The position numbers and the translations under genes were made by a program. Shown piece by piece: positions 7,087 to 24,021 of a stretch of 64,000 bases of DNA. The notes beneath the pieces were generated by a model that saw only the letters and a program-made list of their open reading frames with translations, ran no database searches and was not told the origin of the DNA. The DNA lies in NCBI RefSeq assembly GCF_000729995.1, contig NZ_JNFG01000018.1, forward strand, positions 1 through 64,000. The letters run 5' to 3'. Each line of letters starts with the position of its first letter. Positions within the stretch are counted from its first letter, which is position 1. The DNA comes from Caballeronia sordidicola. GTDB lineage: Bacteria > Pseudomonadota > Gammaproteobacteria > Burkholderiales > Burkholderiaceae.

Positions 7087-8397
7087 ATGAACGGAATCGT
7101 TTCAGTCTTGAACCGCCGCCGGACCCTTGTCACAGCCTGCGCAGCCCTCGCCACAGCCCTCGGTTCGTTGGGGTGGTCCAGCACTGCCGCGGCCCAGACG
7201 AAGACGCTTACCGAATGGGATTCACAGACTGTCGGCGCGGGTCCGAAGATCATCAACGATGCGGCGGGGCGTTTTGAGAAGGCGAACCCCGGCTTCAAGG
7301 TCGAGTCATCTCATGTCCTCAACGATGCATACAAAACCAAGCTGAAAATCGCGTTTGGTGCGAACCAGCCGCCCTGCGTCTTCTCGAGTTGGGGAGGCGG
7401 TCCTCTGCGCGAGTATGTGAAGTCGAATCAGGTGGTTGATCTCACGCCTTATCTCAAGCAAAACGCATCCTTCCAAAACCGCTTCCTGGCAACCGCCTGG
7501 CCGGCGGCCACCTTCGACAACAAGGTTTGGGCCATCCCCGCCGAGAACACATCGGTAGCGGTTGTCTTCTACAACAAGGAGATTTTCGACAAGTACAAGC
7601 TGACACCCCCGAAGACCTGGGACGAGTTGCTCCATGTGATCAGCGTACTGAAATCGAACAATATCGCGCCGTTTGCGTTGGCAAACAAAAACAAATGGAC
7701 CGGGTCCATGTACTACATGTACCTGGTCGACCGTATAGGAGGTTCTGACGTGGTGCGCCGCGCGGTCATGCGGGCGCCGGGCGGCAGTTTCGCCGATCCT
7801 GCCTTCGTAGAAGCGGGAACGCGCCTGCAGGAACTGGTAAAGGCTGGCGCTTTCGCGCAGGGATTCAATGGACTTGACTACGACATAGGCGCGTCAAGGC
7901 GCCTTCTTTATTCCGGGCGTGCGGCGATGGAACTCATCGGGAGCTGGGAAGCGTCGACCGTGAAGGCGGAGAATCCGGCATTTTATTCGAAGCTCGACTA
8001 CTTTCCCTTCCCTTCCGTACCGGGTGGAAAAGGCAATCCGGACGACGTTATCGGCACAGTGGGCGATAACTTCTACAGTATCTCCAAGGCCTGCGCGGAT
8101 CCTCAGGCGGCGTTCCGCTTGATCCAGTCGATGACGGACGATCAATCCATGCGAGAACGCGTGGCGGACACGCGCATACCACCGGTCAAGAACCTGGAAG
8201 TGAACGATCCTATGCTTAAACGCTTTCTAAAGACGGTGTCTGACGCGCCTGCGGTGCAACTCTGGTACGACCAGGAATTGCCACCAGCCCTCGGCGAATT
8301 GCACAAAAACACCACGCAGGCGCTCTTCGGCTTAACGATGAGTCCGCAGGAAGCCGCACAACAAATGGAAGCTGAGGCGAAGAAAGACCTCAATTAA
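7087..8397 (+). CDS. carbohydrate ABC transporter substrate-binding protein (CUT1, family 1)
   Basis: 436 aa with a Tat- or Sec-like N-terminus ([18 protein letters not shown], cleavage near AAAQ). The mature part has family-1 solute-binding features: [33 protein letters not shown], and [14 protein letters not shown]. It captures a sugar in the periplasm for the two permeases that follow. The operon has a Gfo/Idh/MocA and a ThuA-like gene, so a disaccharide such as a trehalose-type sugar is possible, but the ligand is unknown. The GGAAAG ribosome binding site is close to the ATG. Confidence 0.92.
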
Positions 8398-8480
8398 CGC
8401 TACTGACACTAAACGCCTGCGTTTCGTTCAAGCAGCGCGTCCGCCTGATCGTCGATTCAATCGACAAACTGGAGGAAGAT

Positions 8481-9407
8481 GTGAGTTCTACGAAGCTTCG
8501 CATGATGTCCCTGCCGAAGCGATCGCGTCTGGGAAGACCCTCCGCGATGGTCTCAGCTACGTTTCTTGCACCCGCTATTGCCTTGCTCGGCCTCTTTCTT
8601 CTCTACCCGTTGATCTCGAGCTTCCGGTTATCGACGCTCGACTGGAACGGACTTGGCACCACGGGACGCTTCATTGGTCTTCAGAACTGGATTCATCTCT
8701 CGCATGATCCCGCTTTTTTTAAAGCGGTACGCAACAACCTGATACTCGCAGTCTTCTCCGTGCTCATACAGATGCCGATCGCATTGACTCTTGCCGTCAT
8801 GCTCGACAAGGCAGGCCGGGGATCGCGTACGCTCAAGATCCTATATTTCCTGCCGCTGCTGATGTCGAGCGTCGCCATAGGGGTCGTGTTCAAGAACGTG
8901 TATGACCCGAATTTCGGTCCGTTAAACGCGGCTTTGAACGCCCTCGGACTTGGCAATCTGGCGCAAGACTGGCTGGGTGACGGCCGCTTCGCTTTAGGCG
9001 CCACGTTAGCGGTCATCTGCTGGCAAAACATCCCGTTCTACATGATTCTCTTCATGGCTGGACTGTCCTCCCTCTCGCCCGAACTTCGTGAAGCAGCGCG
9101 CCTTGACGGGGCCTCTCCACTGAGGGTGTTCTGGCACATCGAGTTGCCGCATCTGCAAGGCACCTTGCGCACCGGTGTGCTGCTTGCCGTGATCGGTTCG
9201 CTGCGTTATTTCGATCTGATTTTCGTGATGACCGGCGGCGGGCCTGACGGCGCGTCGGAGCTCATGGCGACCTACATGTACCGCACAGTCTTCAGTTCGT
9301 TTCAACTCGGCTACGGCAGCACCATCGCCTCGGCAATGTTCCTGATCGTGCTGGTCGTCGCCAGCGTCACTCTGACCCTCACACGCCGTTTCGAGACGGA
9401 GATATGA
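8481..9407 (+). CDS. sugar ABC transporter permease, MalF/UgpA type
   Basis: 308 aa from a GTG start preceded by GGAGGA. It has six predicted hydrophobic segments, the first at about residues 27-47 ([20 protein letters not shown]). The EAA loop, which couples to the ATPase, is clear: [20 protein letters not shown]. It forms the membrane heterodimer with the next permease; the genes overlap by 4 nt (ATGA). No ATP-binding subunit is encoded in the operon, so it must borrow one from elsewhere. Confidence 0.92.
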
Positions 9408-10279
9408 AAGCGATCCCCAACGTTCACCTTGAATCGAGTACCCCATTTCGCGCGCCCAGGTTTTCCGTATCGCGTGCAATGGTCCTGACGCTCGGCGTCG
9501 GCTGGCTCGCGGTAACAACACTACCTTTTTTGTTCGTCGTGGTAACCAGCCTGAAATCCCAGCAGGACACGTATTCCGGATCGGCCTGGTCGCTCCCGTC
9601 GGTCCTGGACCTGAGCAACTATCGAGCGGTCCTTGAAGGCGGTTTTTGGGTTTATCTGCGCAATAGCCTGTTCGTTGTGGGCTTGTCGACCGCACTGATC
9701 CTGTTGACTGGTTCAATGGCCGCCTACGTATTTGCGCGCATCAGCTCCCGCCTCAACAGATCGATTTTCTCGCTGGTGGTCGCCGGAATGATCGTGCCGT
9801 TGCACGTCACCCTGGTACCGGTTTACCTGATGACGCGCACCGCAGGACTCTACGACACACCCTTTGCCTTGATCGGCCCTTATGTAGCGTCGAGCCTTCC
9901 GGTTTCGATCTTCATTCTCACGGAGTTCATGCGCCAAATCCCGCGTGAACTGGAGGAAGCCGCCATGCTCGACGGCTGCGGACCGTTCGCCATTTTCTGG
10001 CGCATCTTCGTTCCGCTATCCGGGCCGGGACTCGCCACGGTCGCCATCTACAACGCCATCGCATTGTGGAACGAGTTTATTTTTGCCTACGTACTCACCT
10101 CGACGCCGGCCAATCGCACGCTGCCGCTCGCGGTGTGGGACTTCCAGGGTCAATACGCATCGAACATTCCAGCAACGCTCGCGGTCGTCACGCTGACCTC
10201 CCTGCCGTTGATCGTCGCCTACGCGTTCGGCCAGGAACGCATCATAAAAGGAATGATGGTCGGCTCCGTCAAGGGATGA
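9404..10279 (+). CDS. sugar ABC transporter permease, MalG type
   Basis: 291 aa with about six membrane helices and an EAA loop ([20 protein letters not shown]). Its start overlaps the end of the preceding permease, indicating translational coupling and equal stoichiometry. It is the second half of the transmembrane pore for the sugar captured by the upstream binding protein. Confidence 0.92.
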
Positions 10280-10349
10280 AAAGCGGGGTGAAATCTTTTT
10301 CCATTTGCCCGCCGATGGGCACGTGTTCATTCGTTCGAGGCAACATTAC

Positions 10350-11477
10350 ATGACTTCAGCACCCCATCAGAAGTTGCGCGTCGCGGTTGTCGGCTGCGGC
10401 TATATCAGCGACATTTACCTGACCAACCTTCCGAAATTCGCCGGCGTCGAGGTCTGCGCTGTTGCGGATCTCGATATGGAACGGGCACGCGCTTCGGCGC
10501 TCCGGCACGGGGTTGCCCGTGTCCTTGCCGCCGACGCGGTCTACGCCGACCCCGGCATTGACTTGATCCTCAATCTCACGCATCCGGCCGGGCATGCAGA
10601 GGTCGCGCGACGCGCGCTACAGTCGGGAAAGCACGTCTACAACGAGAAGCCGCTGACCCTCGATCTCGATGAAGCGCGCGGGTTGATCGATGCGGCACGC
10701 TCGGCCGCTCTTCAAATCTGCTGCGCGCCGGACACGGTACTGGGTGCGGGCATCCAGACCTGCCGCGCATTGATCGATAGCGGCGCTATTGGCGAGCCGA
10801 TCGCCGCGACGGCCTTCATGACCAACCACGGCCATGAAGGCTGGCACCCCGACCCGTCGTTCTACTACCAGCCAGGCGCTGGTCCGATGTTCGATATGGG
10901 ACCGTACTACCTGAGCGCGCTAGTCAATCTCATCGGGCCCGTCGATGCCGTATCGGGATTTGCTCGCGCAAGTTTTGCCAAGCGAGTCATCGGGAGCAAG
11001 CCCAAACGCGGTCAGCAGATCGACGTGAACACGCCTACGCACGTAGCCGGCCAGATGCAGTTCGCCAACGGTGCAATCGGAACAATTGTGACGAGCTTCG
11101 ATATCTGGGGTGCGAAGCTTCCCTTCATCGAGATCCATGGAACAGAGGGAAGCCTGAGTGTGCCCGACCCCAACACGTTTGGTGGTCCGGTAAGCATCAA
11201 GGTTCGCGATGGTGACTGGACTGAAGTCCCGCTCTCGCATCCCTATAGCGACAACACGCGAGGGCTTGGTATTGCGGACCTTGCACGTTCGCTCCAGACG
11301 GGTGAACGGCCGCGCACAGACGGCGAGATTGGCTACCACGTGCTCGAGGTCATGCACGGCTTTCTTGCCGCGGCGGACCGGCGCCAGACCGTCTCGATTC
11401 ACAGCAGCTTCCAACGACCCGCGCCCATGTCGGAGCAACCCCTGACCATGGCAAACGAGAGATTCACCCATGCCTGA
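10350..11477 (+). CDS. Gfo/Idh/MocA-family NAD(P)-dependent oxidoreductase
   Basis: 375 aa from ATG 10350 with GAGG 9 nt upstream. It has an N-terminal Rossmann fold ([20 protein letters not shown]), the family EKP motif ([12 protein letters not shown]) and a C-terminal substrate domain starting near residue 130. The region around [19 protein letters not shown] is the conserved active-site helix. Family members oxidise or reduce sugars, often at C3. Together with the ThuA-like gene it resembles the ThuAB pair used in 3-keto-disaccharide metabolism in rhizobia (known), so a similar role is inferred. Confidence 0.9.
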
Positions 11478-12150
11478 AAACAACCTGACATCGCGCCGCT
11501 CCGCATTGATGGTCTGGGGTGGATGGGACGGCCACGAGCCGCGCCTGACGACCGAGCGCTTCGCGAATCTGCTCGAGCAGCAGGGATTCGCGGTAGAGAT
11601 CCACGACGACCTTGACGTGTACCTCGACCGTGACCGGCTCGCTGAACAGAACCTGATCGTCAACTGCTTCACCATGGGCCAGCTGGACAAGACGCATACC
11701 CAAAATCTGCTCGCAGCGGTTCGTGGCGGCGCAGGTTTCGGAGGCTGGCACGGCGGTGCCGGCGACGCGTTCCGCGCGAATACCGACTACCAGTTCATGG
11801 TGGGGGGCCAATGGGTCGCGCATCCTGGCAACATCGTCGACTACACTGTTCAGATCGCCGCCTCCGATGACCCGGTTGTTGCTGGACTCGCCGATTTTTC
11901 AATGCACTCGGAGCAGTACTACATGCATTTCGATCCGAGCAACGAGGTACTCGCGACCACCTGCTTCAACGGGCCGTATGTACGAGAACATGAGCCACAA
12001 GTAACGGGCGTCGTCATGCCGGTCGCCTGGAAACGCCAGTGGGGCAAAGGAAGGGTTTTCTATTCGTCGCTGGGTCATATCAACACCGACTTCGATGTCC
12101 CGGAAGCCCGCGAACTGACGTTGCGTGGCCTACTTTGGGCAGCGCGCTGA
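11470..12150 (+). CDS. ThuA-domain (trehalose utilisation-like) protein
   Basis: 226 aa. It has the ThuA fold marks: [10 protein letters not shown] near the N-terminus, the [11 protein letters not shown] glycine-histidine loop at about residues 87-97, EQYYMHFDP, and the C-terminal [10 protein letters not shown] motif. It overlaps the preceding dehydrogenase by 8 nt. ThuA proteins act with Gfo/Idh/MocA enzymes on sugars; the exact reaction is not certain. It is the last gene of the sugar operon. Confidence 0.9.
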
Positions 12151-12250: not shown

Positions 12251-13153
12251 TCAATCGTCCATCGGGCGATCGTTCGGATGCGAAAAGATGGCCTTCAGAG
12301 AATCGCTCATCGGCAACCCGAGCGTGATGCCCTTGGGCGCAATCGGCGACATGAACCACGTGTTGTAAAGCGACTGGCCGCGGCCACTTGTTTCAAGCCG
12401 TGCGATGGTTCGATCGACGACCGCCTTGAACGGGGCATCGCCCTTGGGAAGCATGCATGCGATCGCTTCATGCGTTTGCGGCTCCCCCGCGATCACATAG
12501 TCGTCCGGCCGGTGTGCGGTCGCCCGTTCGCTGGCGAGCACATCGGCATCCATGAAAAAGGCTGCGGCGCGACCGGTTTCGAGGTTCAGGAACGACGCGC
12601 TGTGGTCTCGTGCTTCGACAAGCGTGATGTTCGCGTTGTTCTTCTGGATATACGATCTGATGTAACGCTCGGATGTCGTACCGGTCGTGACCGCCACGGT
12701 CTTGCCTATCAGGTCGTTAAACGAATGGATGTTTGAGTCCGCCTTCGTCAGCAAGCGCGTTTCAGTCACAGAGATCGTATTGGAGAAATCAACCTGCTGC
12801 GCGCGTTCCTTGTTGTTCGTCGTCCCGCCGCACTCAAGATCAATCGTGCCGTTCTGAACCAGCGCGATACGGTTCTGCGCGTTCACCGGAATCATGCGAA
12901 CCTGAAGGTCCGGTGAACCAACCGCTGTCTTGATCTCCTTCACGATCTCCTGCGCAATGTCCTGCGAATAGCCGATGACGTGGTCGTTATTGTCATAGTA
13001 GGAATACGGCACCGACGACTCGCGGTAGCCCAGCACGATCGTATTCCTGGATTTGATCGATGCGAGCCGTCCCGTGAGATCCTGAGCGTGAGCACCGAGC
13101 GCCACGCAGCCGAACACCATGAGGGCAGCGGCACGATAAGGCAGACTGTTCAT
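12251..13153 (-). CDS. amino-acid ABC transporter substrate-binding protein (GltI-like)
   Basis: 300 aa with a signal peptide (AAALMVFGCVALGAHAQ). The family-3 binding fold is clear: IVLGYRESSVPYSYYDNNDH at residues about 39-58, NRIALVQNGTIDLECGGTT, and a hinge with KTVAVTTGTTSERYI. Similar proteins bind glutamate or aspartate. It is the last gene of the minus-strand operon, 57 nt after the aminotransferase. No permease or ATPase for it lies in the window, so it either feeds a transporter encoded elsewhere or has a scavenging role. Confidence 0.9.
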   Translation of the reverse strand: MNSLPYRAAALMVFGCVALGAHAQDLTGRLASIKSRNTIVLGYRESSVPYSYYDNNDHVIGYSQDIAQEIVKEIKTAVGSPDLQVRMIPVNAQNRIALVQNGTIDLECGGTTNNKERAQQVDFSNTISVTETRLLTKADSNIHSFNDLIGKTVAVTTGTTSERYIRSYIQKNNANITLVEARDHSASFLNLETGRAAAFFMDADVLASERATAHRPDDYVIAGEPQTHEAIACMLPKGDAPFKAVVDRTIARLETSGRGQSLYNTWFMSPIAPKGITLGLPMSDSLKAIFSHPNDRPMDD

Positions 13154-13209
13154 TTTTCCGTTCCTTTCCCGATAGTCCGATGGTTGTTACCGCACGCTTC
13201 GCACGCAGG

Positions 13210-14415
13210 TCAGGGACGAAGCGCCGAACATGCAGCCGCAATCCGCTTGCACGCCTCTTCGAGTTGCGCGAAGGAAGTGGCGAATGAAATGCGAAAAGCC
13301 GGAGACAGGCCAAAAGCTGCACCCTGGATTACCGCGACTTCGTGGCTCTCGAGCAGGTACATGACGAAATCGGTGTCGTTACCGATTACCTGACCACCAG
13401 GAGTGCGCTTGCCGATGACGCCCGCACATGAGGGGTAGACGTAGAACGCGCCCGTGGGACGGGGACAATTCAGACCCTCGATCGCGTTCAGGCTCTCCAC
13501 GACGAGATCGCGCCGCCGCTGATATTCACTGCGCCAGCCGGCAAGAAAATCGGTTGGCCCGGTGAGGGCGGCCAGTGCCGCGGCCTGGCTTATGGAGGAC
13601 GGATTGCTGGTGCTTTGCGACTGGAGCTTGGCCATGGCCTTGATAAGCGCCTTGGGGCCGCCCGCGTAGCCAATGCGCCACCCTGTCATGGCAAACGCCT
13701 TCGACACACCGTTGATGGTCAGCGTGCGCTCACGCAGATGCGGGTTGCAGCGGGCAAACGTAGCGAACTTCAGGCCGTCATAAATGAGGTGTTCGTAGAC
13801 GTCATCGGTCATGATCCAGACATGGGGATGGCGGCTGAGCACCTCGCCAAACGCGACGAGTTCACTCTCGGTGTAAGTCGCCCCTGTCGGGTTGCACGGC
13901 GAGTTGAGCACGACCCACTTGGTGCGATCGGTGATGGCCGCGTCGAGCTGCTCCGGCGTCATCTTGTAGTTGCTGCTCACATCACATTCGACCACGACCG
14001 GCCGCCCGCCATTGAGCAGCACCATGTCCGGATAAGACACCCAGTATGGCGCGGGGATAACGACTTCGTCCCCCTCTTCCACCGTGCTCGTCAAGGCGTT
14101 GAACACGACCTGCTTGCCGCCGTTCCCGACCGTAATCTCATCCGGCGCGAAAACCAGCCCGTTCTCCCGTTCGAATTTATCGCAGATGGCGCGCTTGAGT
14201 TCCGGCGTACCGTCCACCACCGTGTAGCGAGTCTTGCCCGCCTTCATCGCGGCATAGGCAGCTTCGACTATGTGCGGCGGCGTGTCGAAGTCCGGCTCGC
14301 CGGAGGTCAGGCCTACGATGTCCCGGCCTGCCGCGCGCAGTTCCTTCACGCGTGCCGTGGCCATTGAACTCGGCGATGGTTTGATGCGCTCCATACGGGC
14401 GGCAATCAGTTTCAT
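13210..14415 (-). CDS. PLP-dependent aminotransferase, aspartate aminotransferase type I
   Basis: 401 aa from ATG 14415 (GAGAG 6 nt upstream). The PLP lysine lies in NGVSKAFAMTGWRIGYAGG. Other features are GLTSGEPDFDTP near the N-terminus, GNGGKQVVFNALTSTVEEGD and LNSPCNPTGATYT, the conserved Asn-Pro-Thr segment. It transfers the amino group of an acidic or aromatic amino acid to 2-oxoglutarate or oxaloacetate. In its operon with leuC/leuD-like genes and an aldolase, it probably deaminates the imported amino acid to the 2-oxo acid acted on next (inference). Confidence 0.92.
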   Translation of the reverse strand: MKLIAARMERIKPSPSSMATARVKELRAAGRDIVGLTSGEPDFDTPPHIVEAAYAAMKAGKTRYTVVDGTPELKRAICDKFERENGLVFAPDEITVGNGGKQVVFNALTSTVEEGDEVVIPAPYWVSYPDMVLLNGGRPVVVECDVSSNYKMTPEQLDAAITDRTKWVVLNSPCNPTGATYTESELVAFGEVLSRHPHVWIMTDDVYEHLIYDGLKFATFARCNPHLRERTLTINGVSKAFAMTGWRIGYAGGPKALIKAMAKLQSQSTSNPSSISQAAALAALTGPTDFLAGWRSEYQRRRDLVVESLNAIEGLNCPRPTGAFYVYPSCAGVIGKRTPGGQVIGNDTDFVMYLLESHEVAVIQGAAFGLSPAFRISFATSFAQLEEACKRIAAACSALRP

Positions 14416-14445
14416 TTTGGTCTCTCGTGAGAAGGTCAAAGATGC

Positions 14446-15126
14446 TTAGGCGATCACGCCTTTTTGCTTCAGGTAGATGTCGATCCAGCCGCGCTTGTCC
14501 TGGCCCACGAGGATCGCCTCCTTGCGTTGCTGTTCCCTCTGCGCCTGAGCGGTGGCGGCAGCCAGCAGGGTCTCGAGCTGGTCAGCGGGAATAGCGACAA
14601 GCCCGTCTTCATCCCCAACGATCAGATCACCGGCCTCGATCACGAGACCACCGATAGCAACCGGCACGTTGATCTCTCCAGGCCCCTCCTTGAACGGACC
14701 ACGATGCGTGTTGCCTCGCGCAAAGCAGGGAAAGTCGGCCGCATAAAACGCGGCGACATCACGTACTGCGCCGTCGATGACAAAGCCGGCGACACCGCGG
14801 ACCTGCGCGTGCATCTGCATCAACTCGCCGACCAGCGCTTGCGTCACTTCACCGCCACCATCGACGACAATGACATCGCCGGGCTCGGCAATGTCTATCG
14901 CCTTGTGGATCATCAGGTTGTCGCCCGGCCTCACCTTGACCGTGATGGCGCGGCCCACGAGCTTCTTCTGGCGGTGATACTGTTTCAGCCCGATCACGCC
15001 ACACAAGCGGTGCATGTTGTCGCTGATGTGCGGAGTAACGAGTGACTGAAAGCGCTCGATAAGGTCTTTCGGAATCGGCGCTGGCATTGGCATGATGCGA
15101 AAGCCAGGCATGGGTTGATGGCTCAT
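14446..15126 (-). CDS. RraA-fold aldolase (4-hydroxy-4-methyl-2-oxoglutarate/CHA aldolase type)
   Basis: 226 aa from ATG 15126. It has the RraA/aldolase fold marks: DNMHRLCGVIG near the N-terminus, DVIVVDGGGEVTQALVGELM, and FVIDGAVRDVAAF, which contains the Arg-Asp pair of the metal-dependent HMG/CHA aldolases. Known members cleave 4-hydroxy-4-methyl-2-oxoglutarate to two pyruvates, or 4-carboxy-4-hydroxy-2-oxoadipate to pyruvate and oxaloacetate. RraA itself (RNase E regulator) shares this fold, but the operon with hydratase and aminotransferase genes favours an aldolase. Confidence 0.87.
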   Translation of the reverse strand: MSHQPMPGFRIMPMPAPIPKDLIERFQSLVTPHISDNMHRLCGVIGLKQYHRQKKLVGRAITVKVRPGDNLMIHKAIDIAEPGDVIVVDGGGEVTQALVGELMQMHAQVRGVAGFVIDGAVRDVAAFYAADFPCFARGNTHRGPFKEGPGEINVPVAIGGLVIEAGDLIVGDEDGLVAIPADQLETLLAAATAQAQREQQRKEAILVGQDKRGWIDIYLKQKGVIA

Positions 15127-15149
15127 GAGTGCAAGTCCTGTAACGAGGA

Positions 15150-15653
15150 TTAAAGTGTTGAATGCGCGCGCAGGTAGGGCACGAGACCGCCCGCGTCGAG
15201 GATTTTCAGAATGTCGTGCGGGATAGGCGCAGCCTCGATTTCGTGGCCGTCGAGCGCGCCATGTACCAGGATGCGCGGCCCCATATCGATCTGGAGGGCA
15301 CAACCTTCCGCTATGCGGCTGGTATCGCATTCAATCGGATAGAGTCCGTTGTTCACTGCGTTGCGAAAGTAGGTCCGCGCAAAACTTTGAGCGAGCACGA
15401 TCCTGATCCCGGCGCCGATCACCGCCGTCACGGCGACCTCCATCGCCGAGCCGCAGCCGAAATTCTTGCCCGCGACAAGGATATCGCCGGGACGCACGGA
15501 GGCCGCGAATTCGGGTGCAATGGTCTCGAACAGATAGTCCTTCAGGACGGCAGGATCGAGCGATTCCCGCTTGCGTCGCGAAGAGATGATGTAGTCGGTA
15601 TTGATGTCGTCGCCAAAGCGCCGCGCAGTAGCCTTGATGGATAGTGACGTCAT
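15150..15653 (-). CDS. LeuD-like small subunit of an isopropylmalate dehydratase-family hydro-lyase
   Basis: 167 aa, the normal length of archaeal-type LeuD. The swivelling-domain motif is GKNFGCGSAMEVA, and GDDINTDYIISSRRK is the conserved N-terminus. It pairs with the LeuC-like large subunit encoded 4 nt upstream to form the hydratase active site. Because it sits with a catabolic aldolase and aminotransferase rather than leuB/leuA, it likely hydrates or isomerises a substrate other than isopropylmalate; homoaconitase and dimethylmaleate hydratase are known alternatives in this family. Confidence 0.9.
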   Translation of the reverse strand: MTSLSIKATARRFGDDINTDYIISSRRKRESLDPAVLKDYLFETIAPEFAASVRPGDILVAGKNFGCGSAMEVAVTAVIGAGIRIVLAQSFARTYFRNAVNNGLYPIECDTSRIAEGCALQIDMGPRILVHGALDGHEIEAAPIPHDILKILDAGGLVPYLRAHSTL

Positions 15654-15657
15654 TCTT

Positions 15658-16923
15658 TTATCGCCTGGAGAGGGTTTGCGGGCTGGCTATGCGGCCCGCT
15701 ATAGCGCTCGCGGCACACACTTCCGGCGACGCCAGGAAGATATTGGCGCTTGGATTGCCCATTCGCCCTTTGAAATTCCTGTTGGCCGTGGAGATCACAT
15801 TCGCGTCATCTTCGGGGATGGCGCCGGCCGTGCCGCAGCATGCACCGCAACCCGGCGTAACGATAATGGCGCCCAGTGCGATCAACTCGGCAAGCTCACC
15901 GCCAAGAGCCAGCTCGTGCAGCGCTTCGCGCGATGCCGGCGTGACGACCAGTTGCACGCCCGCAGCGGGCCTGCCGAACTTACGGAACACCGCCAGCGCC
16001 TGACGAAAGTCTTTCGCACGGCCGCCCGTACACGTGCCGAGACAGGCCATCTGTATGGACACCTCACCCAGTTCGTCGAGGCGTGCGACGTTGTCTACGT
16101 TATGTGGGAGTGCCACGTATGGGCACAACGTCGTGAGATCTATGTCCAGCGTTCGGGTATAGATGGCATCCGCGTCCGCAGAGAGGCCTTCCAACGGGAC
16201 GGCGACGCGTCCGTCGAGATAACGCATACAGGCTGCGTCGAAAGGGAACACGGCGTTCTTGGCTCCCATTTCGACTGACAGATTGGCAAGGACCAATCGA
16301 TCCTCGAAATCAAGCGTGTCGAGTCCTTCGCCGTGAAATTCGAGCGTCTGATACGCGGCGCCATCCGCGCCCAGCAGCTTCGCCAGATGAAGCGCGAGAT
16401 CCTTCGGGTACACACCTGGCGGCAGTTCGCCATGCAGCCTGATCCGGATCGACTCAGGCACCTTGAGCCACACCTTTCCGGTCATCATCACGCCCGCCAG
16501 ATCGGATGAACCAACACCGGTCGCAAAACAATTCGCTGCACCGTAGGTCACCGCATGACTGTCGGCACCGACGAGAAGCCGTCCCGGCGCTGCAAGGCCC
16601 TGTTCAACCACGATCTGATGGCCGATCCCCTCGCCGATATCGAACAACGGAATGCCCTGCTCGCGTGCAAAATGCCGGATCCTCGCCTGCAACATGGCTG
16701 CCTTCGGGCTGGGCGCTGGTGCATAGTGGTCGAGTGCAAAAAGCAGCTTGTGGGGGGAATGAACGCGTGAAGCGCCCATCGCGGCGAAGTAGTCCATCGC
16801 CATAGGAATGGAACCATCGGTGCCCATAGCACAATCCACTTCACAGATCGCGATATCGCCCGCTTTGACGCTGCGTCCCGAGCTAAGCGACAACAGCTTT
16901 TCTGATAGGGTTTTTCCTGACAT
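15658..16923 (-). CDS. LeuC-like large subunit of an aconitase-superfamily hydro-lyase
   Basis: 421 aa from ATG 16923. The three [4Fe-4S] cysteines typical of the family are present: one in ACLGTCTGG and two in PGCGACCG. GADSHAVTYGAANCFATG is the substrate-loop motif. Length fits the compact LeuC/homoaconitase type (about 420). It is the first gene of the minus-strand operon and divergent from a LysR gene. A role in hydrating an unsaturated dicarboxylic oxo acid before aldol cleavage is inferred from the operon. Confidence 0.9.
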   Translation of the reverse strand: MSGKTLSEKLLSLSSGRSVKAGDIAICEVDCAMGTDGSIPMAMDYFAAMGASRVHSPHKLLFALDHYAPAPSPKAAMLQARIRHFAREQGIPLFDIGEGIGHQIVVEQGLAAPGRLLVGADSHAVTYGAANCFATGVGSSDLAGVMMTGKVWLKVPESIRIRLHGELPPGVYPKDLALHLAKLLGADGAAYQTLEFHGEGLDTLDFEDRLVLANLSVEMGAKNAVFPFDAACMRYLDGRVAVPLEGLSADADAIYTRTLDIDLTTLCPYVALPHNVDNVARLDELGEVSIQMACLGTCTGGRAKDFRQALAVFRKFGRPAAGVQLVVTPASREALHELALGGELAELIALGAIIVTPGCGACCGTAGAIPEDDANVISTANRNFKGRMGNPSANIFLASPEVCAASAIAGRIASPQTLSRR

Positions 16924-17260
16924 GTCGTTGGTCTCGCGGATTCGGAACGGCCTGGTTTGAGCGGGTCTCGACCGGGCACTGACGGCACGCTGCAATGCTC
17001 TTTTCCCCGTGGTCTCAAAGCCTACCGCAGAGCTGAGTATCGCAAACCGTGGCAACTCGTATTACGAGTAATAGGCATCGTGACCGATGAATAAAATTCA
17101 TAGGTCATCGAGTTAAAAATGGCGTCGTAAGGTAGTGGCTTCCTTGCAAACCACCCGACATGGGTCAATACTTCAGCGCTGCCGCCGGCCGAAGCCGGCG
17201 CTGAAATGATCTCCGGCGACTGAATAACATCAGCGAACACCATTTGATGCGCATGAGACC
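16924..17260. promoter_or_regulatory. divergent control region between leuC-like operon and LysR gene
   Basis: 337 nt with several inverted repeats: ACTCGTATTACGAGT at 17055-17069 (7-bp arms around a single T), the 27-nt repeat at 17081-17107, and a larger hairpin at 17172-17205 whose outer arms are TTCAGCGC/GCGCTGAA. This density fits a LysR-controlled divergent promoter. A short open frame on the minus strand (17022-17243) looks like chance. Confidence 0.6.
17081..17107. repeat. 27-nt inverted repeat (12-bp arms), candidate operator
   Basis: Arms TGACCGATGAAT and ATTCATAGGTCA flank AAA. Eleven of 12 positions pair; only the G/A at arm position 6 mismatches. It lies between the divergent leuC-like operon (158 nt from its start) and the LysR gene (154 nt from its start), as expected for a shared operator. 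Which regulator binds is inferred, most simply the adjacent LysR protein. Confidence 0.6.
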
Positions 17261-18175
17261 ATGCTAACGCTCAAGCAACTGGAAGCCGTCTATTGGGTCG
17301 CCAAGCTCGGGACCTTCGGTGCAGCGGCGGACCGTCTTTACACGACTCAGTCGGCCATTTCAAAACGCATCAATGAACTGGAAGTCTTCTTTGTGGCTTC
17401 CCTGTTCGATCGCAGCCGACGCACCGTGCGGCTCACAGCGAAAGGACGGGAATTGCTGGAGGCCGCTGAGGAGATGTTGCAGGCCCGCGATCGATTACTC
17501 GAACGCATGGGCAAGGAAGTTGAAGTCGTGCGGCACTTCCGCCTGGGCATCACGGAACTGATCGCGCTGACGTTTCTGCCGCGACTCGTGCAGGAGATTC
17601 GCCAGGCTTACCCCACGGTGTCTCTCGAACCGGAAATTGATGTCAGCACCAATCTCGCCACGAGGCTTCTGCACGGCGAGATCGATTTCATCATCGCCCC
17701 GAGCGTTCTCAAGGATCCGCGCTTCACGTCGGTTCCCTTGAAAAAACTCCAGCTCAACTGGATGTCGAGCCCGTCATTGATTGCTGATTCGCGAGTGCTC
17801 TCGCTGGAAGAAATTGCGAACTATCCCATCCTGATGCAGATTGGCACGTCCGGTGTCGACGCGATCTACGAGCGGTGGTTTGAGTCGAAAAACCTGACGA
17901 TCCGCCGCACGTTCGCGGGCAATAGCCTGATCGCATTGAGTTCACTCACGGTGGCGGGCTTCGGTGTGAGCTATCTGCCGGCGCTGTATTTCTCCGATCT
18001 CGTAGACCAGGGCTTGCTCAACGTACTGCATTCGACGCAGAGCTTGCCCGCGGTGCGCTATTACGCGATCTATCGCAACGATGGGCCTACGCCGCTCTAC
18101 TCAATGGTGGCCGACCTCGCCAGGCGGCTCTGCGATTTTTCAAAGCCGGACCTCGCGTCTGTCATTGCGCGGTAG
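17261..18175 (+). CDS. LysR-family transcriptional regulator
   Basis: 304 aa. The N-terminal helix-turn-helix is LEAVYWVAKLGTFGAAADRL and LYTTQSAISKRINELE. The effector domain covers about residues 90-300, with FRLGITELIALTFLPRLVQE at its start. It is divergent from the leuC/leuD/aldolase/aminotransferase operon and is probably its activator, with the amino acid or oxo acid as co-inducer (inference from position). Confidence 0.93.
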   Translation: MLTLKQLEAVYWVAKLGTFGAAADRLYTTQSAISKRINELEVFFVASLFDRSRRTVRLTAKGRELLEAAEEMLQARDRLLERMGKEVEVVRHFRLGITELIALTFLPRLVQEIRQAYPTVSLEPEIDVSTNLATRLLHGEIDFIIAPSVLKDPRFTSVPLKKLQLNWMSSPSLIADSRVLSLEEIANYPILMQIGTSGVDAIYERWFESKNLTIRRTFAGNSLIALSSLTVAGFGVSYLPALYFSDLVDQGLLNVLHSTQSLPAVRYYAIYRNDGPTPLYSMVADLARRLCDFSKPDLASVIAR

Positions 18176-18215: not shown

Positions 18216-19757
<1,542 letters not shown>

Positions 19758-19839
19758 GGCGGCACTCACTAGCGCTGAGAGAGACGGGACGGCCGGCGCG
19801 CAAAGGCCGTCCCGCACGGTTGCTTCGGTTCTCGGTCGA

Positions 19840-20787
19840 CTACTTGCCAGCCGTAAATTTGTCGACGTTCGATGAATCGACAATGTCCACACCTGTGTCC
19901 GTGACCGGGGGCACCTTTTCGCCCTTGGTCAGTTTATCCAGTTGATCGATCGAGTCCGTGCCCATGCTTGTCGGCCGCTGACCGACCAGCGTGGTCGCAT
20001 ACCCTTCCTTCAGGAGCTTGATCTGCGAAGGCAAGGTATCGAACGACACGATCACGAACTTACCCGACTTGAGATCGGCCGCCTTGTTTTTCAGCGCTCG
20101 CGTATAGGCTTCCGGTGCGAACATCGGCCAGCCTCCGGCGAAGAAAATGCCGTCGATATTCGGGTTCTTGGCAAGGATGTCCTGGATCAGTTGCACAGCC
20201 GTACTGGAATCGTCGTTGCAAGGGAAAGGAGAACCGGATACCTCCTTGAAGCTGCCACCGAGCTTTGACTTGAAGCCCTTGATGCGGTCGTTGAGGTTCG
20301 CCGCCGACAACCCGCCGGTTATCACCGCGTAGTTCCCGCCATTCGGAAGCGCCTTGGCGAACGCCTCGCCTGCCGACACGCCGCCCGCCTCATTGTTGGT
20401 GCCAATGAAGGCGATACGCTTGGACTTCGGTGCGTCGGAGTCGAAGGTAACGACCGGAATGTTCTTGGCCAATGCCGCACTGATCACGCTGCTGATCGAA
20501 TCAGGATTGTTCGGCGCAATCGCGATCCCCGCCACCTTTTTGGTGATCAGGTCGCGGACAATGCGAGCCTGCTCGGCGTCATCTAATTGGGCAGGTCCGG
20601 TGAAAAGGCACTCCGCCCCAATCTTGGCCGCCTCTTCCTTGCAGCCTTTTTCGGCATCGGCGTAGAACGGTACGCCGAGCGCTTTCGGCACCACGGCGAA
20701 CACTTTTTTATCGGCGGCCTGGGCCTGTCCTGCGATCCCAAGTCCTAAAACAGCGGCGGCTACGGCTCCGAGCAATAAGCGTGACAT
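19840..20787 (-). CDS. sugar ABC transporter substrate-binding protein (CUT2), second set
   Basis: 315 aa from ATG 20787, with GGAGG before it. The signal peptide is SRLLLGAVAAAVLGLGIAG (cleavage after AQAA). The mature part has the RbsB-like fold: VFAVVPKALGVPFYADAEKG, IAIAPNNPDSISSVISAAL and PVVTFDSDAPKSKRIAFIG. It binds a sugar or polyol in the periplasm; the ligand is unknown. A near-complete set (permease 20822, ATPase 18216) surrounds it. Confidence 0.92.
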   Translation of the reverse strand: MSRLLLGAVAAAVLGLGIAGQAQAADKKVFAVVPKALGVPFYADAEKGCKEEAAKIGAECLFTGPAQLDDAEQARIVRDLITKKVAGIAIAPNNPDSISSVISAALAKNIPVVTFDSDAPKSKRIAFIGTNNEAGGVSAGEAFAKALPNGGNYAVITGGLSAANLNDRIKGFKSKLGGSFKEVSGSPFPCNDDSSTAVQLIQDILAKNPNIDGIFFAGGWPMFAPEAYTRALKNKAADLKSGKFVIVSFDTLPSQIKLLKEGYATTLVGQRPTSMGTDSIDQLDKLTKGEKVPPVTDTGVDIVDSSNVDKFTAGK

Positions 20788-20821
20788 TGTTTCCTCCAAG
20801 AGATTGTTATGGGTAAAACAC

Positions 20822-21823
20822 TCACCGGCGTCGCCAGACGCCCTTCCTGAGCTGGTCGATAAATACTGCAAAGACGATGACAGAACCAACGAAAACCCCT
20901 TGCCAGTAGGCGTCGGTTCCAAGCAGGATGAGGCCGTTGCGGAGCACTTCGAGGATCACGGTGCCGACGAAGACGCCGATCACGGTGCCCTCGCCGCCGC
21001 TGAGCGCGGTACCGCCAATGACGGCTGCCGCGATGACGCTGAGCTCCTTGCCCAAGCCCTGGTTGGAGATTGCCGAGGATAGATAGCTAACCTCAATAAT
21101 GCCGGCGAGACCCGCCAGCACGGAAGACATGACATAGACGCTGATCTTCAGCCGGTCTACATCGAGGCCGGTCAGCATGGCGGCCCGCTCGTTGCCGCCG
21201 ACTGCGTACAACTGGCGGCCATACACACTACGTTTGAGCACGACGCCGGCAATGATCGACAAGACCACGAAGATCAGGAACGGCGTGGGCAGGCCAATGA
21301 TGTCGCCGCCGCCGAGCGCGAAGAATGCATCGCCGTCCGGCCGGAAGCCGTCAATGGCCTTGCCGCGGGTGATGATGAGGGCGAGCGCGCGCGCAATGCT
21401 CATGGTCGCGAGCGTCGGCACAAAGGGCAGCATGCGCAGCTTGGTCACGCACAAGCCGTTGAACAGGCCCACTGACGCCGCGATCAGGAGCGTGAGCACG
21501 CACGCCGGAACGACGCCCATCCCCGCTTGCATCATCGCGGCGGAGGCGACGGCGGACAGGCCCCAGACACTGCCGACCGACAGGTCGATACCACCGGTGA
21601 TCATCACCGCGGCCTGCCCCAGGACGACGATCCCGACGAACGAGAGGTTGCGCGTGTCGTTGAGGAGATTGTCGACGCTCGCAAAGTTGGGCGCGAAGAT
21701 CGACAGCGCCACGATCATGATCAGAAGCGCGCCAATGATGCCCGTCTCCCGGGACCGCAGGAGACGAACACCGAGACCCGCCCGGCGCTTCGTGTTCATT
21801 GTTGCTTCAATGGGCTTGTTCAT
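20822..21823 (-). CDS. sugar ABC transporter permease (CUT2, RbsC-like), second set
   Basis: 333 aa from ATG 21823 (another ATG at 21799 is possible). About eight to ten hydrophobic segments, starting near ETGIIGALLIMIVALSIFAP. The RbsC hallmark segment VMITGGIDLSVGSVWGLSAV is present. YGRQLYAVGGNERAAMLTGL is the cytoplasmic loop contacting the ATPase. It forms the homodimeric pore for the second transporter set. Confidence 0.92.
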   Translation of the reverse strand: MNKPIEATMNTKRRAGLGVRLLRSRETGIIGALLIMIVALSIFAPNFASVDNLLNDTRNLSFVGIVVLGQAAVMITGGIDLSVGSVWGLSAVASAAMMQAGMGVVPACVLTLLIAASVGLFNGLCVTKLRMLPFVPTLATMSIARALALIITRGKAIDGFRPDGDAFFALGGGDIIGLPTPFLIFVVLSIIAGVVLKRSVYGRQLYAVGGNERAAMLTGLDVDRLKISVYVMSSVLAGLAGIIEVSYLSSAISNQGLGKELSVIAAAVIGGTALSGGEGTVIGVFVGTVILEVLRNGLILLGTDAYWQGVFVGSVIVFAVFIDQLRKGVWRRR

Positions 21824-21907
21824 CTCGGATGCCTTGTGTGCCAATGTCGCCAGGAGATCCGGTCGCGGGATGCTCCTGGCATTGCGCTCCATGCGAGCAT
21901 GAAAATC

Positions 21908-22885
21908 CTAGAACTGCTCCTTGCCGAAGAGCGACTTCGCATTGGTCTGGTCGATGCGTTGAGTGGGCACCAGGATATTGCGGGGAACCTCGGTCGCGCA
22001 GTCGATCAGGATTTTCTTGGCGAGTTCGAGTGCCTGGGCGGCGCCGGTCGGGTACGTAAACGTTGCGGCCCATTGGCCGTCTGCGACCGCACGTATGCCA
22101 CCGGACGGACCCGGCAGGCCATCCGTGCCAATGATCTTCACCTGGTCCGCTTTGCCCGCCTGCTTGGCCGCGATGTATGCACCGGCGGCAGCAAGGTCAT
22201 TGCTCGTATAAACGAGCTTGATGTCCGGGTGCGATTGCAGCATGGCGGAAAATACGGTCACCGCTTGGTCTTCCATCCAGTCGACTGGCTGCACAGCCAC
22301 GAGCTTGATCTTGGGATTGCTGGCAATGCCTGCCTTGAATCCTTCAAGACGTTCGATGGCGGGCGACGAACTCGGCAAGCCTTCGAGAATGGCCGCCTCG
22401 CCTCCGTCGGGCAGCAGTGTCTTGGCGGCCCACTCGCCCGCTTCCTTGGCGATCGCCCGGTTGTCCCCTCCCACGAAGGCCGTGTAGTTGTCTCCACTCG
22501 TCTTGCGATCGAGTTCGATCACCGGCACGCCCGCCTTGTAGACCGCCGATACAGACGGTGTCAAAGGAGCGGCTTCGAAGGGTGAAATCATCAGCAGGTC
22601 GACGCGTTGCGTCATGAAGTTTTCGACCTGCGACACCTGGGTGTTCACGGTCGCCTGTCCGTCGGCGATAACGAGCTTGAATTTCGGGTAGTTCTTCACG
22701 AGGCGTTCGAGCTCGTGATTGACGTGCTCGCGGTACGGCTCCTTGAAGTTCGCCTGGCTAAAGCCGATGACGTAATCCTTGTCCGGCCCGCATTCCTTGG
22801 CAAGCGGCTTGCCGGCCGCTGCCCACGCACCCGATGCAAGAGCGGCGCCGGCAACCAGCAAAGTGGTCCTTAGAACTACTTTCAT
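21908..22885 (-). CDS. sugar ABC transporter substrate-binding protein (YtfQ-like), first set
   Basis: 325 aa from ATG 22885, with CTGGAG upstream. The signal peptide is VVLRTTLLVAGAALASG (cleavage after AWA). Mature fold includes YVIGFSQANFKEPYREHVNH, LLMISPFEAAPLTPSVSAVY and VPVIELDRKTSGDNYTAFVG. This segment pattern resembles YtfQ, a galactofuranose-binding protein, but the sugar cannot be fixed by eye. It belongs with the ATPase (24018) and permease (22984) upstream. Confidence 0.9.
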   Translation of the reverse strand: MKVVLRTTLLVAGAALASGAWAAAGKPLAKECGPDKDYVIGFSQANFKEPYREHVNHELERLVKNYPKFKLVIADGQATVNTQVSQVENFMTQRVDLLMISPFEAAPLTPSVSAVYKAGVPVIELDRKTSGDNYTAFVGGDNRAIAKEAGEWAAKTLLPDGGEAAILEGLPSSSPAIERLEGFKAGIASNPKIKLVAVQPVDWMEDQAVTVFSAMLQSHPDIKLVYTSNDLAAAGAYIAAKQAGKADQVKIIGTDGLPGPSGGIRAVADGQWAATFTYPTGAAQALELAKKILIDCATEVPRNILVPTQRIDQTNAKSLFGKEQF

Positions 22886-22983
22886 TTTTTTCGTCTCCAG
22901 TCTTATGCAACGAAGTTGCGAAAGTTTTTTATGCGTCCGACCCACTGCAACGTCCACCACCTCTTGAAATCACGCCCAACGAT

Positions 22984-24021
22984 TCACCGAGCCGAGCTTC
23001 CGCGCCCGACCACATAGGTTTGCAATGCAGCAGCGATCACGATGATTGCGCCCGTCGCAAGCAGTTGCATGGCGGCGCTGACGTCGTTGAGCTGCAGAAT
23101 ATTCGCCAGCGCGCCGAGCATGACGGCGCCCGCGATCGTGCCGATCATGGAGCCCGCTCCTCCGAACAGGTCCGTGCCGCCGATCACAACCGCCGCAATA
23201 GCGGTGAGTTCATATCCCGCGCCGTCGTTGGGGCTGCCGAACGAGAACTGTCCGGCGTGAACGATGCCCGCGATGGCGGCCACGAATCCTGTTAGTGCGT
23301 AGACCGAAATCTTGATCGCGCTCACCGGGATGCCGGAAAGTCGAGCCGCCTTTTCGTTTCCGCCGACGGCAACAACGTAGCGTCCATAGCGCGTGTTATT
23401 GAGCAAAAAGGCTGCCACCACCGCAAGCACGAGGAACACCAGGGTCGCGACCGGGAAGACGCCGCCGATCCGCTCGCCGAGCACCCCGAAGGCCGGCGGT
23501 GCATTTCCGGGCCCGGCACCATAGTTGATGTTGATGAACGAATTGTTGGACGCAATCAACGACAGGCCGCGCGCCACCTGAAGTCCCGCGAGTGTGACGA
23601 TGAACGCCTGAATCCGAAACTTGGTGGAGATCACGCCCTGGATGGCGCCGAATACCACGCCCGTCGCCACGACCAGCGACAACGTGCTCCACAGGCCCCA
23701 CCCTTCATTGACCAGCAGGGTTGCGGTCAGCACGGAGCAAAGGCCGAGCACGGCTCCGACCGAAAGATCAATACCGGCCGCAATGATCACAAAGGTCATG
23801 CCGAGCGAAAGAATGCCGGTTTCGGAAATCGACCGGATGATATTGGCGATGTTGTCCGGCGCGAGGAACAAAATATGGCCATGCCGGCGCGGGGAAAACA
23901 GGATGCCCGCGCTCACCACCAGAATGAGCCCGAGCAGGCTCTGAAAACGCACCAGATATGCCAGCAGGCTGTGACGCGGACGAACCGGAGCCGTGGCTGA
24001 GGAGGTTGGAGTTGTGCTCAT
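22984..24021 (-). CDS. sugar ABC transporter permease (CUT2, RbsC/YjfF-like), first set
   Basis: 345 aa with about nine hydrophobic segments and the RbsC hallmark FVIIAAGIDLSVGAVLGLCS. NTRYGRYVVAVGGNEKAARL is the cytoplasmic coupling loop. Its start overlaps the ATPase gene by 4 nt (ATGA), showing coupled translation. It is the membrane part of the first transporter set. Confidence 0.92.
   Translation of the reverse strand: MSTTPTSSATAPVRPRHSLLAYLVRFQSLLGLILVVSAGILFSPRRHGHILFLAPDNIANIIRSISETGILSLGMTFVIIAAGIDLSVGAVLGLCSVLTATLLVNEGWGLWSTLSLVVATGVVFGAIQGVISTKFRIQAFIVTLAGLQVARGLSLIASNNSFININYGAGPGNAPPAFGVLGERIGGVFPVATLVFLVLAVVAAFLLNNTRYGRYVVAVGGNEKAARLSGIPVSAIKISVYALTGFVAAIAGIVHAGQFSFGSPNDGAGYELTAIAAVVIGGTDLFGGAGSMIGTIAGAVMLGALANILQLNDVSAAMQLLATGAIIVIAAALQTYVVGRGSSAR

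Follow-up and report, generated by a model that had tools for sequence, protein, structure and literature searches.

A LeuCD-aminotransferase-RraA gene module in Caballeronia sordidicola and scattered other bacteria: a remodelled LeuCD-like enzyme and a possible route for substituted glutamates

Why would genes resembling those for an isopropylmalate dehydratase, a pyruvate aldolase, an aminotransferase, and a glutamate-binding protein stand together, and what compound might their products handle? The question is raised by a 64,000-nucleotide stretch of Caballeronia sordidicola DNA (assembly GCF_000729995.1, contig NZ_JNFG01000018.1, positions 1 to 64,000), hereafter called the window. A first-pass annotation, made from the letters alone, had placed leuCD-like, RraA-type, aminotransferase, and glutamate-binding-type genes of this window in one operon. 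All five genes were found where it had put them, the family scans agreed with its labels at the level of family, and Pfam matches agreed with the curated-model family calls for the operon proteins. We found that the gene set is real and conserved, and apparently undescribed. Moreover, to judge from alignments, the LeuCD active site is remodelled throughout a distinct clade.

The operon and its LeuCD-like enzyme

The operon is a minus-strand set of five tightly spaced genes in the order LeuC-LeuD-RraA-aminotransferase-binding protein, with intergenic gaps of 4, 23, 30, and 56 bp:

15658..16923, minus strand: LeuC-like large subunit (aconitase superfamily), from family models, alignments, and tree; [4Fe-4S] cysteines and NRNFxGR arginine kept, T35/G101/G300 in place of the usual Q/C/N
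15150..15653, minus strand: LeuD-like small subunit; general-base Ser69 kept, Ala70-Met71 in place of Ser-Arg, loop S25-x-R27-K28-R29
14446..15126, minus strand: candidate class II pyruvate aldolase of the RraA fold, PRK06201 family, from model score and alignment to 3NOJ
13210..14415, minus strand: class I aminotransferase of the PRK06107 (aspartate transaminase) family, from model score
12251..13153, minus strand: periplasmic binding protein of the GltI/DEBP type, carrying equivalents of S72A and S90G, from model score and alignment

For the window proteins, "aldolase" and "glutamate-binding" should be taken as family-level labels.

The window LeuC exceeded the cut-offs of NF001614, TIGR01343, and TIGR02086, and the window LeuD exceeded that of the LeuD/DmdB model TIGR02087 (137.8 versus 108.95 bits). 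The scores thus passed the superfamily-level models, and fell below the equivalog cut-offs of LEU2 (382.3 versus 610.65), leud (116.4 versus 245.85), HacA (339.8 versus 550), and HacB (115.9 versus 230). Relatives were collected in two ways. A LeuC scan of 84,980 species genomes gave at least 580 relatives, and the best 80 were kept. Among these best 80 of at least 580, 14 loci (L009-L022) were 51-80% identical to the window LeuC and 66 (L023-L088), which served as controls, were 43-49% identical; the closest named relative was that of Paraburkholderia rhizosphaerae (80%). A search for the GSAME-type motif of the small subunit found it in 2 of 399 genomes of the order, 2 of 58 of the genus, 18 of 398 of the family, 2 of 398 of the phylum, and 8 of 213 of the Bradyrhizobium-assigned genus. 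These samples overlap, the window genome itself was counted in the order, genus, family, and phylum samples, and the reversed-pattern control gave 0. The 3-kb stretches L090-L109 and L142-L149 came from the window or from places refetched longer as L110-L128 and L150-L157, and the counts do not include L114, L123, L126, L127, and L151, which were taken as duplicates of L021, L013, L011, L009, and L015 respectively. After removal of duplicates, 37 clade loci were obtained: besides the window itself, the LeuC scan supplied 14 and the motif search 22 (15 + 7).

The clade LeuC rows were split from the controls by a branch with 100/100 support in a tree of 29 clade and 59 control rows, which holds 88 of the 96 LeuC rows and leaves out the seven later-added loci of the Bradyrhizobium search. 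The catalytic frame was intact. Cluster cysteines C298, C359, and C362, arginines R382 and R387 of the NRNFxGR motif, and the D-S-H motif were kept in all 37 clade LeuC, and the general-base Ser69 in 36/36 readable clade LeuD. Directly beside this serine, the GSSRE of the small subunit was replaced by GSAME (Ala70-Met71) in 36/36 readable clade LeuD, whereas Ser-Arg was kept in 58/58 control LeuD, these 58 being the proteins found in the 66 control loci. Twenty-two of the 37 loci had been found by the GSAME-type motif; among the 15 found otherwise, Ala-Met was present in 14 of the 14 that were readable. The LeuD specificity loop read R27-K28-(R/K)29 at 37/37 clade loci and Y-K-F in most controls. 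In the large subunit, T35 and G101 were seen in 36/36 readable sequences and G300 in 37/37, where the 66 controls have Q or H, C, and N. The value of 36 at some positions arose because the LeuD of L017 stops at a contig edge and one LeuC row (probably L113, with a split match) is partly unreadable.

We take GSSRE of LeuD to match S642-S643-R644 of aconitase, and T35 of LeuC to occupy the likely place of aconitase Gln72. Ser643, Arg644, and Gln72 of aconitase bind a substrate carboxylate. In the clade, the carboxylate usually borne by the deprotonated carbon may be absent or shifted outward, as in a 2-oxo acid group, and the basic LeuD loop could hold it. In the excerpt of PMC8184944, Ser642 is given as the catalytic base of aconitase, and the active sites of the superfamily are described as strongly conserved. 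One active-site Arg/Lys exchange moves yeast aconitases between aconitate and homoaconitate activity (PMC3556520, excerpt); therefore pocket changes of the clade kind can reset the substrate. Leucine or lysine biosynthesis was considered for the window LeuCD and rejected: the Ser-Arg pair is gone, and the genome has other LeuD-type matches, below cut-off, at C43 and C70.

Outside the operon, two further features and two flanking clusters were noted:

17261..18175, plus strand: LysR-type regulator, divergent from the operon, from family scan
17088..17100, no strand assigned: palindromic T-N11-A (TGAATAAAATTCA), a possible LysR box in the LysR/operon intergenic region, by consensus match only

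Just past the LysR gene, at 18216-24021, lies a ribose-type ATP-binding cassette (ABC) cluster, of which one ATPase was scanned and two binding proteins and two permeases were recognised by eye. On the other side, at 7087-12150 and on the opposite strand toward the operon, a sugar ABC transporter (by eye) is followed by a GFO/IDH/MocA oxidoreductase and a ThuA-family gene.

Recurrence of the module and variation in its parts

Within 8 kb of LeuC, an aminotransferase gene was found at 33/37 clade loci, an RraA-fold gene at 31/37, and both at 30/37 (26, 26, and 25 of the first 30 loci; 7, 5, and 5 of the added 7). At the 66 control LeuCD loci the figures were 15 for the aminotransferase, 1 for RraA (L072), and 0 for both. 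The two counts differ in stringency, as identity floors were used for the first 30 clade loci and only E-value and coverage for the controls, where on average 11.3 of 16 kb of flank was searched; the control is also less sensitive to distant genes because its genomes are far from the queries. The exceptional control, L072, is a Lachnospiraceae LeuCD with the usual GSSRE, and its RraA-fold gene lies ~1.2 kb off. The 37 loci are not independent events, since many are closely related to one another, among them 9 from Bradyrhizobium and 12 of Cupriavidus type. The module was present in Paraburkholderia/Burkholderia, Cupriavidus, Pseudomonas agarici, Bradyrhizobium, and one Solibacteraceae metagenome-assembled genome. 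In P. agarici (L022), genes for LeuC, LeuD, binding protein, aminotransferase, two permeases, ATPase, and RraA all lie on one strand. A tblastn search of a plasmid collection returned 600 records, the best at 54% (Cupriavidus campinensis), an entry that carries no annotation in that collection.

The partners of LeuCD varied in kind. The window aminotransferase scored just under the PRK06107 cut-off (615.6 versus 617 bits), and this class I type was found at 22 loci. Eleven loci carried a class V enzyme instead: two Bradyrhizobium, one Solibacteraceae, one Hyphomicrobiaceae, and the seven loci added by the Bradyrhizobium search. The best model for the class V protein, tested on L014, was BhcA, an aspartate-glyoxylate enzyme, well below its cut-off (275.3 versus 650 bits). 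Since the aminotransferases belong to two unrelated classes, it seems to be the order of reactions that is conserved, rather than just one operon handed down from an ancestor.

The window RraA exceeded the NF004850/PRK06201 cut-off (302.8 versus 231 bits) and did not reach that of the LigK model TIGR02798 (124.5 versus 304.5 bits). The position of the D-X20-R-D sequence, which we take to be the LigK-type aldolase motif, read E-X20-R-D in the window RraA, D-X20-R-D in its paralogue L005, and G-X20-R-D in L021/L022. By eye, the RraA proteins could be sorted by sequence into a number of groups, in which Glu or Gly stands at the place of D102 of 3NOJ. The closest solved relative was this 3NOJ (1.5e-31), an aldolase of 4-hydroxy-4-methyl-2-oxoglutarate and 4-carboxy-4-hydroxy-2-oxoadipate (HMG/CHA aldolase). 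Equivalents of its N71, H75, R123, D124 (a metal-site residue), K147, and E199 were kept in the window RraA. Changes at N71, R123, and K147 cost the Pseudomonas putida HMG/CHA aldolase most of its activity, according to the excerpt of PMC5065237.

The window binding protein fell below the PRK10797 cut-off (340.3 versus 375 bits) and matched 2IA4 over its whole length (E 7.6e-87). All 10 operon GltI-type copies had Ala at 72, Gly or Ala at 90, and an altered MDxDV stretch; both serines were present in 3/3 canonical GltI-like copies elsewhere in the loci. We take S90 of GltI to be a pocket serine with a role in binding. S72 of GltI contacts the carboxylate on the side chain of bound glutamate, and the S72A change turns the preference of GltI-based sensors to aspartate (PMC10942590, excerpt), so the pocket change alone does not imply a larger glutamate. 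No permease gene directly adjoins the window binding protein. Uptake genes also differed among loci: the GltI-type protein was seen at 10, of which L022 and L128 also have permeases; in L012 its place is taken by a GltP-type symporter (623 versus a cut-off of 638 bits); and an SBP_bac_6 ABC system was found in the Bradyrhizobium loci and near L019.

The 10.26-Mb host genome holds 12 RraA-fold matches and 34 matches to the window binding protein. In one cluster, L135:1-10870 (G000:C20:236000-255900), a full-score PRK06107 aminotransferase (720.6 bits) and an RraA of the PRK06201 family occur together with subunits of 5-oxoprolinase type (PxpA subfamily model above cut-off, PxpC equivalog below), an amino-acid ABC transporter, and a gene resembling glyoxylate reductase; this cluster is apparently a related parallel route for hydroxylated (pyro)glutamate. 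Another, L139, carries a full-score LigK (405.7 versus 304.5 bits) near Amidohydro_2 genes. Because these two clusters exist, the window operon is neither the sole aminotransferase-RraA pair of the genome nor its LigK. A PRK06107-like aminotransferase, 52% identical and in a 404-amino-acid open frame, was also observed beside three RraA paralogues in L136:6510-10909 (G000:C18:108500-112900).

A possible pathway and competing explanations

We tentatively propose, at slightly under an even chance, that the operon is under LysR control and serves to break down a glutamate substituted at C4 (alkylidene- or hydroxy-alkyl-), ending in pyruvate. The GltI-type protein would capture the amino acid, and the aminotransferase, going by its family, would convert it to the 2-oxo acid. 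Should the compound carry a 4-methylene group, its double bond would migrate, possibly spontaneously. The LeuCD-like enzyme, as its pocket and neighbours suggest, would then add water to give a 4-hydroxy-2-oxo diacid, and the RraA-fold aldolase, in which catalytic residues are kept, would split this by retro-aldol cleavage into pyruvate and a second 2-oxo acid. Legumes contain 4-methylene and 3-hydroxy-4-methyl(ene) glutamates. The choice of 4-methyleneglutamate as candidate substrate is reasonable but unproven, and its grounds are chemistry and inference. Some C3/C4-substituted 2-oxoglutarates are natural products (PMC11345546, excerpt). The first-pass annotation had outlined such a route. 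Its general logic, in which an acidic amino acid is taken up and transaminated, then hydrated by a relative of LeuCD and split by a retro-aldol step to give pyruvate, gained support from the recurrence of the module, the remodelled LeuCD, and the altered binding pocket. With 4-methyleneglutamate as the substrate, the threonine-aldolase-like and HyuA-type genes described below would not be expected.

Several observations weigh against this proposal. Hydration of a 4-methylene group first needs the double-bond migration. D102, T145, and R195 of 3NOJ are replaced by Glu, Pro, and Gln in the window RraA, and T145A too lowers the activity of the P. putida enzyme (PMC5065237, excerpt). An S72A-type pocket would be compatible with a preference for aspartate, and at 14 of 30 loci a TctC-type binding protein (Pfam check on L021) lies within 8 kb, without the operon GltI-type protein. 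Within the same distance, the aminotransferase was absent at 4/37 loci and an intact RraA at 6/37, some of whose contigs end nearby. Both were absent from L020; in L019, where RraA lies on the opposite strand and there is no aminotransferase, genes for two subunits resembling decarboxylases and for an aldehyde dehydrogenase were seen. HyuA-type genes were found at 4 of 30 loci. After the second clade LeuCD copy of the Cupriavidus-like genome G744 (L112, 8355-14117) come HyuA/HyuB, and neither an aminotransferase nor an RraA gene lies within 8 kb. In 9/9 Bradyrhizobium operons (L014, L015, L150, L152-L157), a threonine-aldolase-like gene comes directly after the ABC permease, and this counts against the proposed route because the route does not need such an enzyme. 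The gene matched PF01212 on L153 and the GntG model, below cut-off, on L153 and L015, and was not found in L016 or L018. Moreover, an intact RraA was missing nearby at 2/9 Bradyrhizobium loci: the copy of L153 lacks residues 68-190 and L157 has none nearby, and both genomes hold RraA-fold genes elsewhere.

Part of these departing loci is better explained by a hydroxyglutamate route, which we consider unlikely overall. LeuCD would be an isomerase that moves a hydroxyl from C3 to C4 (3-hydroxyglutamate to 3-hydroxy-2-oxoglutarate to 4-hydroxy-2-oxoglutarate), and RraA would release pyruvate and glyoxylate. Isomerisation is the usual reaction of LeuCD enzymes; all nine Bradyrhizobium operons join the threonine-aldolase-like gene to a class V aminotransferase with BhcA as best model (L014), and the sister aminotransferase-RraA cluster L135 includes the glyoxylate-reductase-like gene. 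However, loss of the LeuD Ser-Arg pair would fit a one-way hydratase equally well or better, no glyoxylate-handling gene was found among the nine window proteins scanned, and 3-hydroxyglutamate is rare as a nutrient.

A tricarboxylate version is improbable. In it, LeuCD would add water to a compound like 4-oxalomesaconate to form 4-carboxy-4-hydroxy-2-oxoadipate, which RraA would cleave to pyruvate and oxaloacetate. The relationship of RraA to 3NOJ points to it, the Arg/Lys-rich LeuD loop would suit an extra carboxylate, and the TctC-type binding proteins stand at Cupriavidus-type loci. Against this, a full-score LigK near Amidohydro_2 genes is already present in the genome, the operon RraA does not reach the LigK cut-off, and the source amino acid, 4-carboxymethyl(ene)-glutamate, would be very rare. 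The same LigK weakened the gallate-pathway alternative of the first-pass annotation. A primary gallate/protocatechuate function was rejected on this ground and because no aromatic-pathway enzyme was found among the nine window proteins scanned.

More doubtful still is that RraA is an oxaloacetate decarboxylase and the aminotransferase acts on aspartate, with an isopropylmalate/citramalate-type LeuCD isomerase merely adjoining. The HMG/CHA aldolase also decarboxylates oxaloacetate (PMC5065237, excerpt), the aminotransferase family is named for aspartate transaminase, and the S72A sensors lean to aspartate, as cited above. Yet the three genes stay associated across non-homologous replacements, and the Ser-Arg pair kept in every control LeuD is lost. 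Least probable is a biosynthetic direction in which a substituted glutamate would be built by aldol condensation of pyruvate, followed by dehydration and transamination: plants do so, and all three reactions are reversible in principle, yet many loci hold binding proteins, permeases, or a symporter, as uptake operons do.

Returning to catabolism of a 4-substituted glutamate, a wider claim is possible, and we place it somewhat short of an even chance: that this is an undescribed amino-acid catabolic pathway around a new functional class, a 2-oxo-diacid hydratase with Ala-Met for Ser-Arg, which opens branched or unsaturated glutamates, for example the legume 4-methylene and 3-hydroxy-4-methyl compounds, to soil and root bacteria. 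In the open-licence literature, judged mostly by title, no catabolic genes for 4-methyleneglutamate and its relatives were apparent among papers on metabolomics, synthesis, and pharmacology, and no operon joining an HMG aldolase, an isopropylmalate dehydratase, and an aminotransferase was found. The enzyme families are known; the Ala-Met LeuCD clade and the three-enzyme module are apparently undescribed there. A coherent clade with a changed pair beside the catalytic serine, linked to a transaminase and a pyruvate-aldolase-type protein, offers a handle on an unassigned function. If the substrate is a substituted glutamate, the module would let bacteria consume a class of amino acids that occur in plants and fungi, and the generic names "3-isopropylmalate dehydratase" and "hypothetical protein" (PRK06201) would be corrected for such genes.

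Comparison with known systems

Each part of the operon resembles a known system and departs from it. The binding protein belongs to the family of GltI/DEBP (PDB 2VHA/2IA4) over its full length; it differs by S72A, S90G or S90A, and the changed MDxDV stretch of all operon copies, and by its score below the PRK10797 cut-off. LeuCD shares family, two-subunit build, cluster cysteines, base serine, and NRNFxGR arginines with archaeal-type isopropylmalate/citramalate isomerase and homoaconitase (PDB 4KP1/3VBA, 4KP2/2PKP), whereas the clade has GSAME instead of GSSRE, the loop S-x-R-K-R/K, T/G/G for the control Q35/C101/N300, and aminotransferase and RraA neighbours.

Two systems come close in the order of reactions. 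The LigK aldolase of gallate/protocatechuate 4,5-cleavage works with a hydratase partner, and the window operon would share this hydratase-then-aldolase logic as well as the equivalents of N71/H75/R123/D124/K147/E199. Unlike LigK, its RraA is of another subfamily (PRK06201) with three residue changes, its hydratase partner would be of the aconitase fold, and no aromatic-pathway gene accompanies it among the scanned proteins. In nicotinate fermentation, the 2,3-dimethylmalate dehydratase DmdAB carries out a LeuCD-type hydration step ahead of C-C cleavage to pyruvate. The window LeuD matches the LeuD/DmdB model TIGR02087; the window operon differs from DmdAB and its lyase in having another lyase family and, as proposed here, an amino acid as substrate.

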